Notes under the pieces: generated by a model
Seen by the model: the letters and a program-made list of their open reading frames with translations, nothing else
Told to the model about the DNA's origin: nothing
Databases searched by the model: none
Position numbers and translations under genes: made by a program
In this document: piece after piece, positions 11,568 to 48,736 of the stretch
Layout of the letters: every line of letters starts with the position of its first letter
Numbering within the stretch: position 1 is the first letter of the stretch
From: Sneathiella sedimenti
GTDB taxonomy: Bacteria; Pseudomonadota; Alphaproteobacteria; Sneathiellales; Sneathiellaceae
NCBI RefSeq assembly: GCF_017313765.1
Contig: NZ_JAFLNC010000001.1
Coordinates: 124,001 to 188,000, forward strand
Direction: 5' to 3'
DNA length: 64,000 bases

Positions 11568-11620
11568 CTGCGCGGGATGACCGCATTGATTTGCGTCAAT
11601 GCGGTCACGAAGGCGCGCAG
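11568..11620 (-). ncRNA. Long two-step hairpin between peroxiredoxin-like and cold-shock genes
   Basis: A perfect 12-bp stem, TGACCGCATTGA (11578-11589) with TCAATGCGGTCA (11596-11607), closes a 6-base loop. It is extended by CTGCGCG (11568-11574) pairing with CGCGCAG (11614-11620) across an internal loop of 3 and 6 bases. No T-run follows on either strand. It lies 54 bases after the peroxiredoxin-like stop and in the cold-shock gene's leader, so it may be a structured 5' UTR, a factor-assisted terminator or a small RNA. Confidence 0.55.
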
Positions 11621-23020: not shown

Positions 23021-23503
23021 ATGAGCGCAACCAAAGAAAATGAGAAGTATGACCGGAAGATGGAGCTTCCCTCTTCGGATTTTCGCATCGTTAACTGGAT
23101 CGGAATCATCAGCCAGTTGACAGATACGAAAATGCGGCAACTACTCGATGGAACTGACGTCCCTCCCCCACAATTCATTCTTCTCAACCATTTCACTCAT
23201 CAGCCCGATGAGGGCAGGACCGTCTCAGGGATCGCCTGGGCCTTGCAACAACCGCAACCGGGCATAACAAAAACCGTCGCGAAGATGCTTAAAAAGGGGT
23301 TTCTTCGCGCAGAAGATAACCCGGCGGATGGTCGCTCGAAGATCCTTTATATTACCAAGTCCGGCACTCAAGCACATGCCAAGGCGAAAGAACGCCTGGA
23401 AATTGCTTTTGCAGACACCTTTGAAGGCTGGCGCGAGTGGGAGAAAAAGGACTTCTTCGGGTTTCTCGATCGGCTGAAAACCTCCTTGGACGAGAGCCGC
23501 TAA
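23021..23503 (+). CDS. MarR-family transcription regulator
   Basis: A 160-residue winged-helix protein. The DNA-recognition part reads RTVSGIAWALQQPQPGITKTVAKMLKKGFLRAE, then the wing DNPADGRSKILYITKSG, the usual MarR layout. The N-terminal helices that form the dimer and ligand pocket precede it. MarR proteins are repressors released by small phenolic or other ligands. Candidate targets are itself, the divergent HcaT-like MFS gene (21558), and the convergent EamA gene. A weak TGAT-N6-ATCA repeat lies just before its ATG. Confidence 0.88.
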   Translation: MSATKENEKYDRKMELPSSDFRIVNWIGIISQLTDTKMRQLLDGTDVPPPQFILLNHFTHQPDEGRTVSGIAWALQQPQPGITKTVAKMLKKGFLRAEDNPADGRSKILYITKSGTQAHAKAKERLEIAFADTFEGWREWEKKDFFGFLDRLKTSLDESR

Positions 23504-40988: not shown

Positions 40989-41360
40989 ATGAAACTTTCT
41001 GTGAACCATGCCGACGACGCAGAATTCTCCGGTGGGCTTCGCGGCTTTTTCGAATATCGCGATCTCGGCATCAAGGAGGCCACCAATGGCCGGGTCGGCG
41101 CCCACGTCATCCGTGCTGTGCCGGGCAAACATGCCGTTGGCGACAATCATATTCACAAGTTGGAATTCCAGATGGTCTATGTTCTCAAAGGATGGGTCAA
41201 ATTCTGGTATGAAGGAACAGGTGAGGTGACACTCAAAGCAGGTTCCTGTGTCCATCAACCTCCCGAAATCAGGCATCAGGAACTCGCCCATTCCGATGAT
41301 CTCGAATTGATTGAAATTACCCTTCCTGCGGATTTTGAAACCCTCGAAACTGGCGAATGA
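40989..41360 (+). CDS. Single-domain cupin protein
   Basis: A 123-residue cytoplasmic cupin. The metal-binding motif region reads GDNHIHKLEFQMVYVLKGWVKFWYEG (in parts: NHIHKLEFQ then VLKGWVKF) and GSCVHQPPEIRHQEL. Two histidines, a glutamate and a second histidine are placed as in metal-binding cupins. The function is unknown; small cupins include isomerases, dioxygenases and sensors. It follows the MFS gene closely and is the last gene before the efflux operon's promoter. Confidence 0.8.
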   Translation: MKLSVNHADDAEFSGGLRGFFEYRDLGIKEATNGRVGAHVIRAVPGKHAVGDNHIHKLEFQMVYVLKGWVKFWYEGTGEVTLKAGSCVHQPPEIRHQELAHSDDLELIEITLPADFETLETGE

Positions 41361-41408
41361 GTACGGCTCTTTTGCCCAGTATGTTCGGCGGCTTCATGCC
41401 CTACCGTC

Positions 41409-41451
41409 CCATGTCAATCGCTTTGACATGGTTGAATTGAACCGTTATGTT
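41409..41451 (+). promoter_or_regulatory. Sigma70-type promoter with overlapping operator for TolC-adaptor-RND operon
   Basis: A perfect 9-bp inverted repeat, CCATGTCAA-N5-TTGACATGG (41409-41431), overlaps a consensus -35 box TTGACA (41423-41428). A -10 box TATGTT (41446-41451) follows at 17 bases. A repressor bound to the repeat would block RNA polymerase. The operon starts 56 bases downstream. No regulator gene is adjacent. Confidence 0.65.
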
Positions 41452-41506
41452 TTTTCAGTTCCAATAAAGGCTCGTTGGCAATAATGCTTCGTTGGAAATT
41501 GTTATC

Positions 41507-42847
41507 ATGGTGAACCTACTCCCCGCACTGTCAGCAATCTTGCTCGGCGGTTGCGTTGTAACAACGATGACGGCATGGGCGGCGGAAGACCCGCTTCTTA
41601 CTCTTGAAGATGCCCTCCTGATTGCCAAAACACAGAACTATCAACTTAAAAATGCCGGACTGCAAATCAACGTTGTCGAAGAGCAAAAGAAGGCTGTTCA
41701 GGCCAAACAGTTTCCGCAGTTAAGCGCCCAGGTTAACGGCCTCCAGAATTTTGTCGACAATGAATATACCTTCGAGCAGGGATCACTCGGGACCGTCGGG
41801 GGCAGCCCGGTTCCATCCAGCAATGTCTCCATTGATACAACAAACGGCTTTACCACCCACTATTCATTGACGGCAACCCAACCGCTTGTCGGTCTTTATG
41901 GAATTGGCCTCAACGTCGACAAGCTTAAGACGCAGCAGGAAATCGCGCGTCAGCAATCCCGCCAGACAGAACAATCCATTACCCTTCAGGTCAAACAGCT
42001 TTATTACCAGATTTTAAGTGGAGAAAGCGCGATTGAAGCGACCCGTTCCTCTGTCCAGTTCAACGAGGAACTCGTCAAGATCCTGAAAGATAATGTGGCG
42101 CAAAAGACGGAGCTAGAATATCAGCTCCTGAATGGAGAGGCACAGCTTGCCTCTGCCCGTCATCAACTTGTTTCGCAGCAAAATGACTTGCTGACGAGCA
42201 AGCAACAACTCAACACAATGCTGGGCCGAGATATTTCCACGCCTTTCCGTGTAACGCCGGTCGATGCTAACCCATCTCTCTCCTACAACGTAGATCAGGC
42301 GGAAGATCAAGCGATCGCCCAGAGGCCTGAAACCCGAGAGGCCCGTCTTCAGGTTGAAGCCGCAGAAACAGAGGTAGAAATCCAGAAAAGCGGTTATCTC
42401 CCTGAGGTCAATCTAGTTGCCAGCTATGGCCGCACCGAAAACACCACACTTTTACCCGATGAAAGCCTGTATGTCGGTTTGCTCGCAAAATGGGATTTCT
42501 TCACTTGGGGGGCAAATCAGAGCAATGTGGCAGGGTCGCGTTTCGCTCTTCAACAGGCGTTGAATTCGCTCCGTGATAATGAAGATCAAATTCGGGCACA
42601 AGTAAACGCAAGCATCCGGAACCTGGACGTGGCAAGAGCCCTTGTTCCGGTGACTGAAGTCGCCAAAAGGGCCGCGGAGGAGAAGCTGCGGGTGAGCTTC
42701 AATCAATATAAAGCGAAAACAATATTGCTTAGTGATTTACTGGATGCCCAATCTCAACTGGAACAGGCAAATGATGATTTTCATCAGGCGCTGCTCGGCG
42801 TATGGAATGCCAGCGCGGAATTGAAGCAGGCGTTGGGGGAAGAATAG
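41507..42847 (+). CDS. TolC-family outer-membrane efflux protein
   Basis: A 446-residue exported protein forming the outer-membrane duct of an RND pump. Signal region ILLGGCVVTTMTAWAAED; the Cys in LLGGC might be a lipobox, but a signal peptidase I site at AWAAED fits too. Two outer-membrane-efflux repeats follow, each with coiled-coil helices: LEDALLIAKTQNYQLKNAGLQ and, in the second, QVEAAETEVEIQKSGYLPEVNL. The longest frame begins at a TTG at 41492; the ATG at 41507 precedes the signal peptide directly. Followed without gap by the adaptor gene. Confidence 0.9.
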   Translation: MVNLLPALSAILLGGCVVTTMTAWAAEDPLLTLEDALLIAKTQNYQLKNAGLQINVVEEQKKAVQAKQFPQLSAQVNGLQNFVDNEYTFEQGSLGTVGGSPVPSSNVSIDTTNGFTTHYSLTATQPLVGLYGIGLNVDKLKTQQEIARQQSRQTEQSITLQVKQLYYQILSGESAIEATRSSVQFNEELVKILKDNVAQKTELEYQLLNGEAQLASARHQLVSQQNDLLTSKQQLNTMLGRDISTPFRVTPVDANPSLSYNVDQAEDQAIAQRPETREARLQVEAAETEVEIQKSGYLPEVNLVASYGRTENTTLLPDESLYVGLLAKWDFFTWGANQSNVAGSRFALQQALNSLRDNEDQIRAQVNASIRNLDVARALVPVTEVAKRAAEEKLRVSFNQYKAKTILLSDLLDAQSQLEQANDDFHQALLGVWNASAELKQALGEE

Positions 42848-44012: not shown

Positions 44013-47000
44013 GTGAAAGATTTTTCGGAAACCCGCAATACCGCCCGCTATTTTACGGAAAACCGGCATATCTCCTGGGTGTTGCTCCTCGCTGTATTCA
44101 TGTGGGGCATATATGGCTATCTCTCCATGCCCAAGGCGAAAGATCCCGCCATAGAAGTTCGGGTTGCCTCGGTAATAACGAGCTGGCCCGGCGCCGATGC
44201 GACGAAGATTGAACAGCTTGTCACCCGCCCGATAGAACAGCAGATCGCTCTCAGTTCGACACTACATCCGGTCAGCACGACGAAATTTGCCGTGAAATCA
44301 ATGACCTTGCCAAATCTTTCCATTGTCCAGATCCAGCTGGAGGAAACATTGGATGATACGAAGGCAGCATTTAACGAGATCGACCTCAACCTGAAAGCAC
44401 TTAACCTGCCCGAAGGCGCGGGGCCCATACAGTTCAACGACGGGTTCGGGGATACTGCCGCGATCCTTATGACCATCGCCAGCCCGACCGAAAATCCAGT
44501 GGAAATCTCCCTCCGTGCCAGGGATATAGAGGCGGCGATCAAAGCCGCACGCACAAAAACGGGCCGTGGGACCGAACACCGTCGTTCCCTGATCGTCGTG
44601 ATGCCGCGCGATATCGCCCTGACCGCACCAAGCCGGCAAATGGACCTGTTCAAGGATGACCTGATCAAAAGCGAGAAAGCCTCGGATATCGCATCCCTGA
44701 AGGGCGCAGGGTTTATCGGCCTCGACCTTGAAACTAGTCTTTCTGATGCCGATTTGCGCATGGCACTAAATGAATTCCTGCAGGTGAAGCTAGGACAAGT
44801 CAGTTTTCATGAAGATGCCTGGCCAGCACTCATCATAGATGACCCGTCAAAAACTAACGAAATCCTGCAGGCGTCTCCCGGGGGTAAATACAGCTATCGG
44901 GAGCTAGATGACTATTCCAACCTGATCATTCGTAATTTACAGACCATCCCGCTGGTAACCGTCGTCAATTCTTCCGGCGTCGTGGATGAGAAGATATTTC
45001 TGCAATATTCACAGGATCTTCTCGCTTCCTACGGCTTGACGCCGAACGATGTGTCTGGTGCGATCAGCGCACGCAACAGCGATATCTCAGGCGGAGAGTT
45101 TTATGCGAGCGGTTCCAGTGTGCTGGTCGAACCGGTTGGCAAATATACCAGCCCCGACCAGATTGGCGGGACCGCTTTTACGAAATCCCCATCCGGGGCC
45201 CCTGTGTATCTGCGAGATATCGGCGAAGTCGTCCCCGGATATCAATCCCCGCCGGAATTCCTCAATTACTACAACTGGCGAGATGAGCAAGGGAACTGGC
45301 ACCGTGGCAAGGCAATTTCTCTCGCCATCCAGATGCGCGATGGGGGCCAGATCGGCAAGTTTGGAGAGGCCGTCGACGCCCTGTTAAAAGAAGTGCGCCC
45401 TCATCTTCCCGACGACCTGGTGATTGAGCGTATCTCGAACCAGCCATCCCAGGTGGCTGAAAATATCGATTTGTTCATGACGGCACTTATTGAAGCCATT
45501 ATCCTTGTCGTGGCGATATCGTTCCTTGGGTTTTGGGAATGGCGCTCAGCTCTTTTGATGATGATGTCCATCCCGATAACGCTGGCCATGACATTCGGGG
45601 TTATCGATGCATTGGGCATTCAATTGCAGCAGGTTTCAATCGCAACGTTGATTATCGCCCTCGGCCTCCTAGTCGATGATCCGGTGGTCGCGGGCGATGC
45701 CATCAAACGCGGCCTCGCGGAGGGCCAGAAGAGAACCCTCGCCGCCTGGCTAGGCCCGACCAAACTCGCCCATGCTATTATGTTCGCGACCATCACCAAT
45801 GTTGTCGCCTATCTTCCCTTCCTGTTGCTTACCGGGAATACCGGGGAATTCCTTTACAGCCTTCCGGTCGTGATGACGACCGCGCTTATTTGCTCCCGGC
45901 TTGTCTCAATGAGCTTTCTGCCCTTTCTTGGCTATTATCTGCTCAGGGCACGTGATAAGCCGGAACCGACTATTGAAGAACGGCGCGAGCGAGGTTTCAG
46001 TGGCCTGTATTTCCGTGTTGGCAGCTTCCTGATCAATCACCGGAAGAAAGCATTGGTCGCGTCCTTTGCTTTTATCGCCCTGATCATACCGTTGAGCAAA
46101 ACGCTGAAAACCTCCTTTTTTCCGGATGATGTCCAGTATCTGTTCTACGCCGACGTCGCGCTTCGCAATAACGCGAATATCCATGAAACGCAGAAGGTTG
46201 TCGAGGATGCGGTCAGTATCATCAAAGGTGTCGCAACAGAATTCGGCGCGAGCCTCGGTCCCAAAGCCGGTGGCGATCCTTTGCAATCCATCGCGAGCTT
46301 TATTGGCGGCGGCGCGCCCCGCTTCTGGTTCTCAGTCACACCGCAACTGCATCAGCGAAATTACGCTCAGCTCGTGATGCGCGTAAACAACAAGGACCTG
46401 ACAGCCGAACTTATTCCACATTTGCAGGGAGCCCTGAGCGCGAAAATTCCGGAAGCCATCATTGACGTGCGTCAATTGCAAACTAATCCGGTGCCCTACC
46501 CCGTGGAAATCCGTCTTATTGCAAAATCTGCTGTTCAGTCAGAGGGTCCGGAATCAGAGGCTGAAATCGCCACCCTTCGCAAGCTTGCCGGTGATGTGAT
46601 TAAAATTCTCGCCAAAGCACCGAACGCGGCGCGGGCCCGCGAAGACTGGGGCGGGGAGTCCTTGCGACTTCGCATTAACATTGACCCGGATCGCGCCTTT
46701 CTTGCCGGCGTGACCAACCAGAATATTGCGGCGTCTTCGTCCGCCGGGCTGAATGGCAACCAGGTCACGACTTTGCAGCGCGGCGACAAGAACATTCCCG
46801 TTGTCTCAATCCTCCAGCCGTCGGAACGGGCGCAGCTATCCGATCTTGAAAACCTGTATGTTTTTGCCACCACGAATAACAACAAGGTGCCGCTTGGCCA
46901 GATAGCGACTGTCGAATACCAGCTCCATACCGAGCGGATCCTGCGCGAAGAGCATTTCCGCACGATCAATGTCCGGGCCTTTCCTTTGGCCGGGGTTCTG

Positions 47001-47636
47001 CCGTCAGAAGTCATGGCGGTCATCCAGGACGACCTCGCGATGTTTGAGGAACGGCTTCCCCCTGGTTTTAAGATGGAGATTACGGGCGAGCAGGCGAACG
47101 CTCAACAAGGCTTCAAACAACTTTCCCAAGTTATGGGTATATCCCTCGGGCTGATTTTCGTCGCGCTTGTTTTTCAGTTCAAGAGTGCCGTCAAGCCACT
47201 GATTGTGCTGGCGGCAGTGCCCTATGGCATCATCGGGGCGCTCATCGCGCTAGCGGTAACCAACAGCCCGTTCGGCTTCATGGCCTTTCTTGGTATCGTC
47301 GCTCTCATCGGCGTGATCGTCAGCCATATAATCGTACTTTTCGATTTTATCGAGGAAATGCATGAAAAAGGTGAGCCATTAAGGGAAGCGTTGCTCGACG
47401 CGGGGATTGTTCGTCTCCGGCCGGTTCTGATCACTGTTGGCGCTACAGTGTTCGGTCTCGGTCCCCTCGCCCTCCATGGCGGACCGCTTTGGCAGCCGCT
47501 TTGTTATGCACAGATCGGTGGCCTGACCATCGCGACCTTTACGACCTTGCTGCTGGTCCCGGTAATCTATTCCATTTTCGTGCTCGACCTGAAGGCCGTC
47601 AAATGGGAAGAACGCTCGGCGCCGGCGGCAGCATAA
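44013..47636 (+). CDS. RND efflux permease with enlarged first periplasmic loop
   Basis: The inner-membrane pump of the upstream adaptor/TolC set. At 1207 residues it is about 150 longer than AcrB. The proton-relay aspartates are in IALGLLVDDPVVAGD (Asp555, Asp556), against Asp410/411 in the second RND permease of this window; the extra 145 residues lie mainly in the first periplasmic loop, roughly residues 155-290. In the tenth helix the usual asparagine pair region reads GVIVSHIIVLFDFIEE, so the residues differ from HAE1 pumps. The start is a GTG with GGAAAGGGGG upstream. Cargo not known; probably multidrug or organic solvent. Confidence 0.9.
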   Translation: MKDFSETRNTARYFTENRHISWVLLLAVFMWGIYGYLSMPKAKDPAIEVRVASVITSWPGADATKIEQLVTRPIEQQIALSSTLHPVSTTKFAVKSMTLPNLSIVQIQLEETLDDTKAAFNEIDLNLKALNLPEGAGPIQFNDGFGDTAAILMTIASPTENPVEISLRARDIEAAIKAARTKTGRGTEHRRSLIVVMPRDIALTAPSRQMDLFKDDLIKSEKASDIASLKGAGFIGLDLETSLSDADLRMALNEFLQVKLGQVSFHEDAWPALIIDDPSKTNEILQASPGGKYSYRELDDYSNLIIRNLQTIPLVTVVNSSGVVDEKIFLQYSQDLLASYGLTPNDVSGAISARNSDISGGEFYASGSSVLVEPVGKYTSPDQIGGTAFTKSPSGAPVYLRDIGEVVPGYQSPPEFLNYYNWRDEQGNWHRGKAISLAIQMRDGGQIGKFGEAVDALLKEVRPHLPDDLVIERISNQPSQVAENIDLFMTALIEAIILVVAISFLGFWEWRSALLMMMSIPITLAMTFGVIDALGIQLQQVSIATLIIALGLLVDDPVVAGDAIKRGLAEGQKRTLAAWLGPTKLAHAIMFATITNVVAYLPFLLLTGNTGEFLYSLPVVMTTALICSRLVSMSFLPFLGYYLLRARDKPEPTIEERRERGFSGLYFRVGSFLINHRKKALVASFAFIALIIPLSKTLKTSFFPDDVQYLFYADVALRNNANIHETQKVVEDAVSIIKGVATEFGASLGPKAGGDPLQSIASFIGGGAPRFWFSVTPQLHQRNYAQLVMRVNNKDLTAELIPHLQGALSAKIPEAIIDVRQLQTNPVPYPVEIRLIAKSAVQSEGPESEAEIATLRKLAGDVIKILAKAPNAARAREDWGGESLRLRINIDPDRAFLAGVTNQNIAASSSAGLNGNQVTTLQRGDKNIPVVSILQPSERAQLSDLENLYVFATTNNNKVPLGQIATVEYQLHTERILREEHFRTINVRAFPLAGVLPSEVMAVIQDDLAMFEERLPPGFKMEITGEQANAQQGFKQLSQVMGISLGLIFVALVFQFKSAVKPLIVLAAVPYGIIGALIALAVTNSPFGFMAFLGIVALIGVIVSHIIVLFDFIEEMHEKGEPLREALLDAGIVRLRPVLITVGATVFGLGPLALHGGPLWQPLCYAQIGGLTIATFTTLLLVPVIYSIFVLDLKAVKWEERSAPAAA

Positions 47637-47719: not shown

Positions 47720-48736
47720 ATGCACCTACTTAAGGAACGAGTTAAGTTGAAAAGAATTTTCGGCGCGGTTGTCAGCCTGGTTTTGATGATGCCCCTCACC
47801 AACACCCTGCAGGCCGCAGAAATTATGCGCTGTAGCCATCAGCTTTCGCCGAACAGCCATATTGCCAAAGTCATTGATCAGTGGGCCGCAGAAATAGAGA
47901 CTTTGTCAGAAAATGACATTGATGTGCAGATAAACGGCGCAAACAGTCTGGTAATGGCCCCACGAAATATAGCAGCTGTCCGCGCCGGGGAACTGGAATG
48001 TGCCTTTTCCAACAATCGGCACTGGACGGAAAGTCTTCCGCTGATGGATATCACGCTCGAACCATTTGCCCTGCGTAATGTTGAGATTCTTAAAAAATGG
48101 CGAGGATCGCCCGCGGCAAACCTGCTGGAGCAGAAGATACTGGAAACAGGGCTGACCAATGTCGCCTGGTTATTCACGACATGGCGTACCGCGATTACGT
48201 CAAACGGGCGACATATAATCAAGCCATCCGATTTTAAAGGTGTAAAGATTCAGGGGTTGGGGCCAATCTCGAACGCGGCGTTTGAGGCGCTTGGGGCAAT
48301 CCCCGTCGACATGTCCGACAAGAAGGCCTATGTCGCCCTTGAAAATGGTGATTTGGATGCGGGTCTTACAAATGTGTCCTCAGCCCTGTCTGCCCGATAT
48401 TTTGAAGTGCAGGACCATGTAACGATCCTGCCACTCTTCACCCTATTCTATAACGGATATGTCAACACCACATGGTACAACGCTTTGCCGGAGAAAAGTA
48501 AGCAGGCAATAAGAGAGGCAAGCGCAAGAGCCGCAATCTGGGCGATTGAGGCGAGCGAGATTTCGGCCGCCGCCGCACCAAACCTCCTAAAAGACGAGGA
48601 CATGCAAGTCTATGTAGCAACACAGCCGGAAATTGAGGCATTGAAAAACATCATGCGGCCTGCGTTTAACAAGAAGTTTCTCTCGACAACAGGCCAGTTA
48701 GGATCTGAGTTAATAACGTTGGTCGACGAGATGTAA
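47720..48736 (+). CDS. TRAP transporter substrate-binding protein, DctP-like (orphan)
   Basis: A periplasmic binding protein of about 330-338 residues. A signal peptide (core FGAVVSLVLMMPL, cleavage near LQAAEI) precedes the DctP-like chain: CSHQLSPNSHIAKVIDQWAAEIE (in parts), GVKIQGLGPISNAAFEALGAIP and ENGDLDAGLTNVSSAL. The DctQ and DctM membrane subunits are not next to it. The ATG at 47720 has no good ribosome-binding site; a TTG at 47747 with AAGGAACGAG upstream may be the true start. The 83-base gap from the RND gene suggests a separate transcript. Ligand unknown. Confidence 0.8.
   Translation: MHLLKERVKLKRIFGAVVSLVLMMPLTNTLQAAEIMRCSHQLSPNSHIAKVIDQWAAEIETLSENDIDVQINGANSLVMAPRNIAAVRAGELECAFSNNRHWTESLPLMDITLEPFALRNVEILKKWRGSPAANLLEQKILETGLTNVAWLFTTWRTAITSNGRHIIKPSDFKGVKIQGLGPISNAAFEALGAIPVDMSDKKAYVALENGDLDAGLTNVSSALSARYFEVQDHVTILPLFTLFYNGYVNTTWYNALPEKSKQAIREASARAAIWAIEASEISAAAAPNLLKDEDMQVYVATQPEIEALKNIMRPAFNKKFLSTTGQLGSELITLVDEM

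Follow-up and report, generated by a model that had tools for sequence, protein, structure and literature searches.

Is the inverted repeat that overlaps the −35 box in front of an RND efflux operon an operator, or a chance resemblance to one? The site (41409-41451) lies in the window, by which we mean the whole 64,000-nucleotide stretch of DNA that was analysed, and it precedes genes for a TolC-type protein, an adaptor and an RND pump on the same strand. The source genome, that of a marine bacterium, measures 3.58 Mb in 8 contigs, and its nearest relatives are named Sneathiella (Alphaproteobacteria, Sneathiellales). The initial annotation had read the site as a repressible promoter. We consider it highly probable that the site is a conserved sigma-70-type promoter of the TolC-adaptor-RND operon, on which a dyad private to this species happens to fall. 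The features are as follows.

41409-41417, no strand assigned: left arm of the inverted repeat; complements the right arm perfectly; outer six bases (41409-41414) not conserved
41415-41422, plus strand: CAATCGCT upstream of the −35 element; conserved in the closest relatives in the column table
41423-41428, plus strand: −35 element TTGACA, part of the right arm; unchanged in all 11 Sneathiella genomes
41429-41445, plus strand: 17-bp spacer; same length in all 11 genomes, sequence kept mainly in the closest relatives
41446-41451, plus strand: −10 element TATGTT; final T in 11 of 11 genomes
41452-41455, plus strand: T-run after the −10 element (discriminator region); 34 of 40 bases identical to the window in 10 relatives, absent in G014
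41457-41458, plus strand: predicted transcription start, placed by the 6-bp distance to the −10 element
41507-42847, plus strand: TolC-type outer-membrane efflux protein, operon gene 1 (PF02321 OEP, 9.3e-50); predicted start codon
42848-43978, plus strand: RND periplasmic adaptor (TIGR01730 RND_mfp, 228.1 bits, cut-off 94.9)
44013-47636, plus strand: AcrB-type RND pump of 1207 aa (PF00873 ACR_tran, 1.1e-145)

The OEP/TolC, RND_mfp and ACR_tran profile matches agree with the RND efflux operon that had been annotated downstream of the site, and the three genes are probably carried on one transcript. Upstream of the operon lie genes for an MFS transporter and a small cupin protein, the latter on the operon strand, and a gene for a TRAP-type solute-binding protein lies 3′ of the pump gene. 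A scan of 13 flanking genes (32602-53334) detected no regulator, as the initial annotation had also held, and the sole TetR_N or MarR_2 match within the window is a MarR-family gene at 23021-23503, 18 kb from the operon. In classical TetR/MarR-repressed RND systems, the regulator gene usually adjoins the operon, whereas no adjacent or divergent regulator appears among the flanking genes here. The locus does resemble those systems in having a dyad within an RND operon promoter, an arrangement reportedly exemplified by the MtrR operator at mtrCDE of Neisseria gonorrhoeae and by other TetR/MarR-repressed RND operons. It differs from an operator of the TetR/MarR type in that its dyad is not conserved between species. 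The sites of both families are described in the available part of PMC6018408. The portion of PMC9275681 brought up by a search on Sneathiella and efflux holds nothing on this operon.

Several observations concern the neighborhood of the operon rather than its control. The TRAP-type DctP gene (47720-48736) has no membrane partners alongside it, and a DctP gene also follows the pump gene in seven of the eight relatives that could be judged, the exception being G021; a ninth relative (G016) was left out of this count because its contig ends first. The cupin gene (40989-41360) has no counterpart ORF of at least 100 aa in G020, G016, G002 and G014, and in G002 the cupin DNA can still be aligned despite the missing ORF; the operon promoter is kept in all four genomes despite this absence. 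Within the leader, 41462-41478 and 41479-41495 form a 17-nt imperfect direct repeat (82%) that adjoins the likely ribosome-binding site; aligned with this repeat, the nearest relatives have a gap roughly one copy long.

The initial annotation described the sequence of the site correctly. The arms CCATGTCAA (41409-41417) and TTGACATGG (41423-41431) are 9 bp long, 100% complementary and separated by the 5-nt loop TCGCT, and the right arm opens with TTGACA, which is followed after 17 nt by TATGTT. A dyad-symmetric sequence that overlaps promoter elements, as an operator would, is thus present. By number, such repeats are close to the chance level: the window holds four perfect repeats of at least 9 bp with a loop of at most 8 nt, whereas 60 first-order Markov sequences averaged 2.2, and 13 of them reached four or more. 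With loops of up to 20 nt, there is a mild excess (8 repeats, where 20 control sequences held 0-7 and averaged 4.4). The longest perfect inverted repeat among those listed for the window is found at 11578-11607, with 12-bp arms and a 6-nt loop (TGACCGCATTGA...TCAATGCGGTCA). The two hexamers are of the sigma-70 type, a TTGACA-like and a TANNNT-like element within the range of 16-18 bp of each other, and they agree with the consensus at 10 of 12 positions. By themselves they are not significant, as a promoter scan of 1.1 kb returned one match versus 1.0 expected from shuffles. Because neither the repeats nor the promoter matches depart much from chance, evolutionary comparison rather than counting is needed to judge the site.

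We therefore turned to the genus. The operon or a part of it is present in 12 of the 24 Sneathiella genomes (one genome per species), and the promoter is readable in 11 of them, namely the window and 10 relatives, all of which were counted with none dropped. In the remaining genome (G008), the pump is present, no tolC match was obtained and the contig seems to stop inside the adaptor gene; in G010, the contig boundary leaves only part of tolC. Across the 10 relatives, all 60 bases of the −35 element and 54 of 60 bases of the −10 element are identical to the window, and free and ungapped alignments agree on the hexamers. By comparison, identity in the flanks is at the random level (76 of 310 bases upstream at 41378-41408 and 70 of 270 downstream at 41456-41482), so that the hexamers are kept above the surrounding DNA in orthologous regions. 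Exactly one TTGACA-N(16-18)-TAT pattern occurs per locus in the 11 loci, always with a spacing of 17 bp. The spacer itself is less constant, with 16 of 30 bases identical in the TGG and 82 of 140 in the rest. Conservation of the hexamers, of their spacing and of the T-run over flanks at the random level is good evidence, from sequence comparison, for a real promoter, and recognition by sigma-70 would account for the conserved hexamers.

The proposed promoter also accords with what is known of its class. In the available part of a nine-species analysis (PMC8407463), 6 bp from the −10 element is the commonest start distance, and the start predicted here and in the initial annotation (41457-41460) matches that usual distance (section 5 of the same paper). 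The TTG-type −35 element, the 17-bp spacing and the predicted start 6 bp from the −10 element are shared with the alphaproteobacterial sigma-70 promoters in that part of the paper. Unlike more than 60% of the sigma-70 promoters of the four alphaproteobacteria analysed there, which have no T at −7 (Myers et al. 2021, PMC8407463, same part), the −10 element here ends in T in all 11 genomes, and the promoter therefore falls in the less common alphaproteobacterial subclass.

The inverted repeat has a different history. Identity in the outer six bases of its left arm (41409-41414) is at the random level, like that of the flanks (11 of 60 bases in the 10 relatives). Even in the three closest relatives (G020, G003 and G018), the right arm is wholly identical (27 of 27 bases) and the outer six bases of the left arm are not (5 of 18). 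Conservation sets in at 41415, part-way through the left arm, with the CAA that is complementary to TTG in the −35 element. No repeat of at least 6 bp covers the −35 element in any of the 10 relatives, and the arms corresponding to the dyad of the window retain 2-5 of 9 pairs. Four of these promoters hold short repeats of other kinds: those of G002 (7 bp) and G016 (6 bp) take in the final two or three bases of the −35 element and extend to the −10 element, and those of G018 and G022 (6 bp) lie further downstream. The repeat was observed in no other species and has most probably arisen by chance. We propose that RNA polymerase with the housekeeping sigma factor would recognise both hexamers and start transcription of the operon at about 41457/41458, and that the outer left arm would be unconstrained DNA that in this species is by chance complementary to the conserved −35 region. 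Since the outer left arm appears unconstrained, a repressor that reads the dyad is unlikely, and expression of the operon would be independent of one. Thus, one half of the repressible promoter of the initial annotation stands, namely the promoter, with its conserved hexamers, 17-bp spacing and T-run, while the operator half is unsupported, given a left arm that drifts in the relatives and searches that turned up neither a second site nor a TetR/MarR gene with a good copy of it. A trans-acting repressor is likewise unsupported, and the initial annotation's conclusion that one must exist is not warranted.

A rival reading is an operator restricted to this species. In such a scheme, an unlinked TetR/MarR-like repressor would sit on the dyad over the −35 element and block polymerase until an inducer arrives. 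A −35 box covered by a perfect 9-bp dyad has the look of a real operator, operators turn over between species, so that non-conservation is compatible with one, and the excess of 9-bp repeats over shuffles at loops of up to 20 nt also points this way. The genome, with 19 TetR_N and 34 MarR_2 profile matches (28 of the latter above the curated cut-off), offers many candidate proteins. Against these points, the 10 relatives retain the operon with its promoter but lack the dyad. With up to three mismatches, the 23-bp site recurs at four other places in the genome (a control pattern at none), three within long ORFs and the fourth where two ORFs of the same strand meet; the search proposed in the initial annotation thus uncovered no other close copy in intergenic DNA before a gene. 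The exact inner 7-bp arms with a loop of 0-12 nt match the genome only at 41409-41431. With up to two mismatches, the 24 genus genomes add one match each in G011 and G010, both within ORFs, and hold no copy outside ORFs besides the site itself. Nor did a TetR/MarR gene carrying the same site, as the initial annotation had envisaged, come to light. In 49 test loci (the 19 TetR_N matches, two of them from one ORF, and 30 of the 34 MarR_2 matches), the best upstream match was 13 of 18 bases (L105, L124, L101 and L125), compared with a mean best of 12.5 (range 11-16) for 200 shuffled sites. When 1,400 bases were taken per locus in a cruder test, the best match was 14 (13 on average in the controls, range 12-15), and six loci had at least 13 matching bases, where 50 shuffled sites averaged 2.2 such loci (range 0-11). 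Partial matches were commoner at TetR/MarR loci than in controls: at least 12 of 18 bases matched in 13 of 49 upstream regions versus a mean of 3.9 and a maximum of 13 for the 200 shuffled sites, and versus 4 of 48 upstream regions of other window genes, with the site itself left out (49 of 50 genes had a long enough upstream region). We suspect that −35 boxes resembling TTGACA in genuine intergenic DNA account for this excess. Taken together, a species-private operator seems to us improbable. The particular version in which an unlinked repressor captured the conserved promoter very recently, through changes in six neutral upstream bases in one lineage, we regard as quite improbable; if it were true, the site would capture a new regulatory link as it arises and would show plainly how an old promoter can be rewired.

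A regulator might instead read conserved bases outside the hexamers and ignore the dyad. The columns ATC (41417-41419), GA (41439-41440) and G (41444) are kept in 9-11 of 11 genomes, with A, T and C at 41417-41419 kept in 11, 10 and 10 of them, and those of the T-run in 8-10; the hexamers do not explain the conserved ATC and GA. However, the G at 41444 and the T-run adjoin the −10 element and may be mere polymerase contacts. The best 42-bp block here has a mean identity of 0.944, tied for fourth among 31 rows for the upstream intergenic regions of the window in the same relatives, in a comparison where some rows show one region from both sides, three rest on two relatives and some regions may hold unannotated genes or RNAs. 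Because a block of this identity is ordinary among intergenic regions, the spacer conserved in the closest species needs no additional operator, and we rejected conservation of the whole block as a sign of an extra operator, given that other intergenic regions score alike. In the available part of PMC9275681, a CenR site is TGA-N8-TGA on one strand, with TGA starts 10-11 bp apart; by eye, the TGA starts within 41409-41451 (41424, 41433 and 41438) are spaced by 9, 5 and 14, so no CenR-type repeat at the right spacing is found there. We hold a factor of this kind to be possible but rather doubtful. The repeat could also act as RNA, either as a terminator of the MFS-cupin transcript or as a leader hairpin, and it does lie 3′ of the cupin gene on the same strand. 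Yet no T-run directly follows the stem, a terminator scan did not list the repeat, the repeat is not conserved, and it lies upstream of the predicted start and hence outside the operon leader. A leader fold of four sequences, rough in that the stretches from three relatives began slightly upstream, gave five weak pairs and no compensatory changes. An RNA role is, in our judgment, very improbable.

Other candidates were examined and set aside. A second palindrome in the spacer, GGTTGAATTGAACC (41430-41443, 6 of 7 pairs), is seen by eye only in G000, G020 and G003. A leader peptide from the ATG at 41428-41430 in the right arm was rejected, as this ATG is kept only in G020, G003 and G018 and lies upstream of the predicted start. 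The large reverse-strand gene between the cupin and tolC genes of G022, a possible divergent regulator, encodes PEP carboxylase. In G021, seven ORFs separate the operon from a histidine kinase/OmpR-type pair about 7 kb upstream. None was identified in the other relatives, in a Pfam scan that covered 11 neighbor ORFs of relatives in all; four of these ORFs (L045) have no family and may be wrong-strand ORFs. With up to one mismatch allowed, the promoter pattern matches in 11 of the 24 genus genomes, in 10 cases at the RND operon (one match for a reversed control); the single match away from the operon (G017, L080) lies between two reverse-strand ORFs. A looser pattern occurs at six places in the genome of the window, this one included (controls 1 and 1), and we discarded the pattern as a mark of a regulon.

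The pump encoded by the operon carries an unusual feature of its own. Residues ~150-290 (DNA 44460-44888) form an extra stretch of ~130 residues, which we take to be placed near the start of the second porter subdomain. In one alignment with the solved pump 6vej, query residues 149-293 correspond to chain residues 144-155. The insert is kept in the window and nine Sneathiella relatives and belongs to no Pfam family. A search of 289 sampled alphaproteobacterial genomes did not detect it in the other 288, and the sample yielded no further genome with the operon. In a modelled piece (overall pLDDT 65.3, pTM 0.60), residues 33-160 are predicted to fold as beta-alpha-beta-beta-alpha-beta, with a mean pLDDT of 69-94 per ten residues. 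Foldseek returned no match at E 0.001 or better, and structure matches were weak to middling (best Z 6.8), RND pumps among them (e.g., MexY, Z 6.3). In our reading, the best structural matches have ferredoxin-like folds, as the insert itself is predicted to have, although matches this weak show only a common arrangement; the insert could perhaps be an additional porter-like subdomain. It is more curious than the promoter site, which is itself ordinary.

A −35 box with a chance complementary arm is easily mistaken for an operator. At this locus, comparison with a few related genomes backs the promoter half of that interpretation and strongly weakens the operator half. For Sneathiella, the comparison locates the likely promoter and a candidate transcription start of the RND operon.
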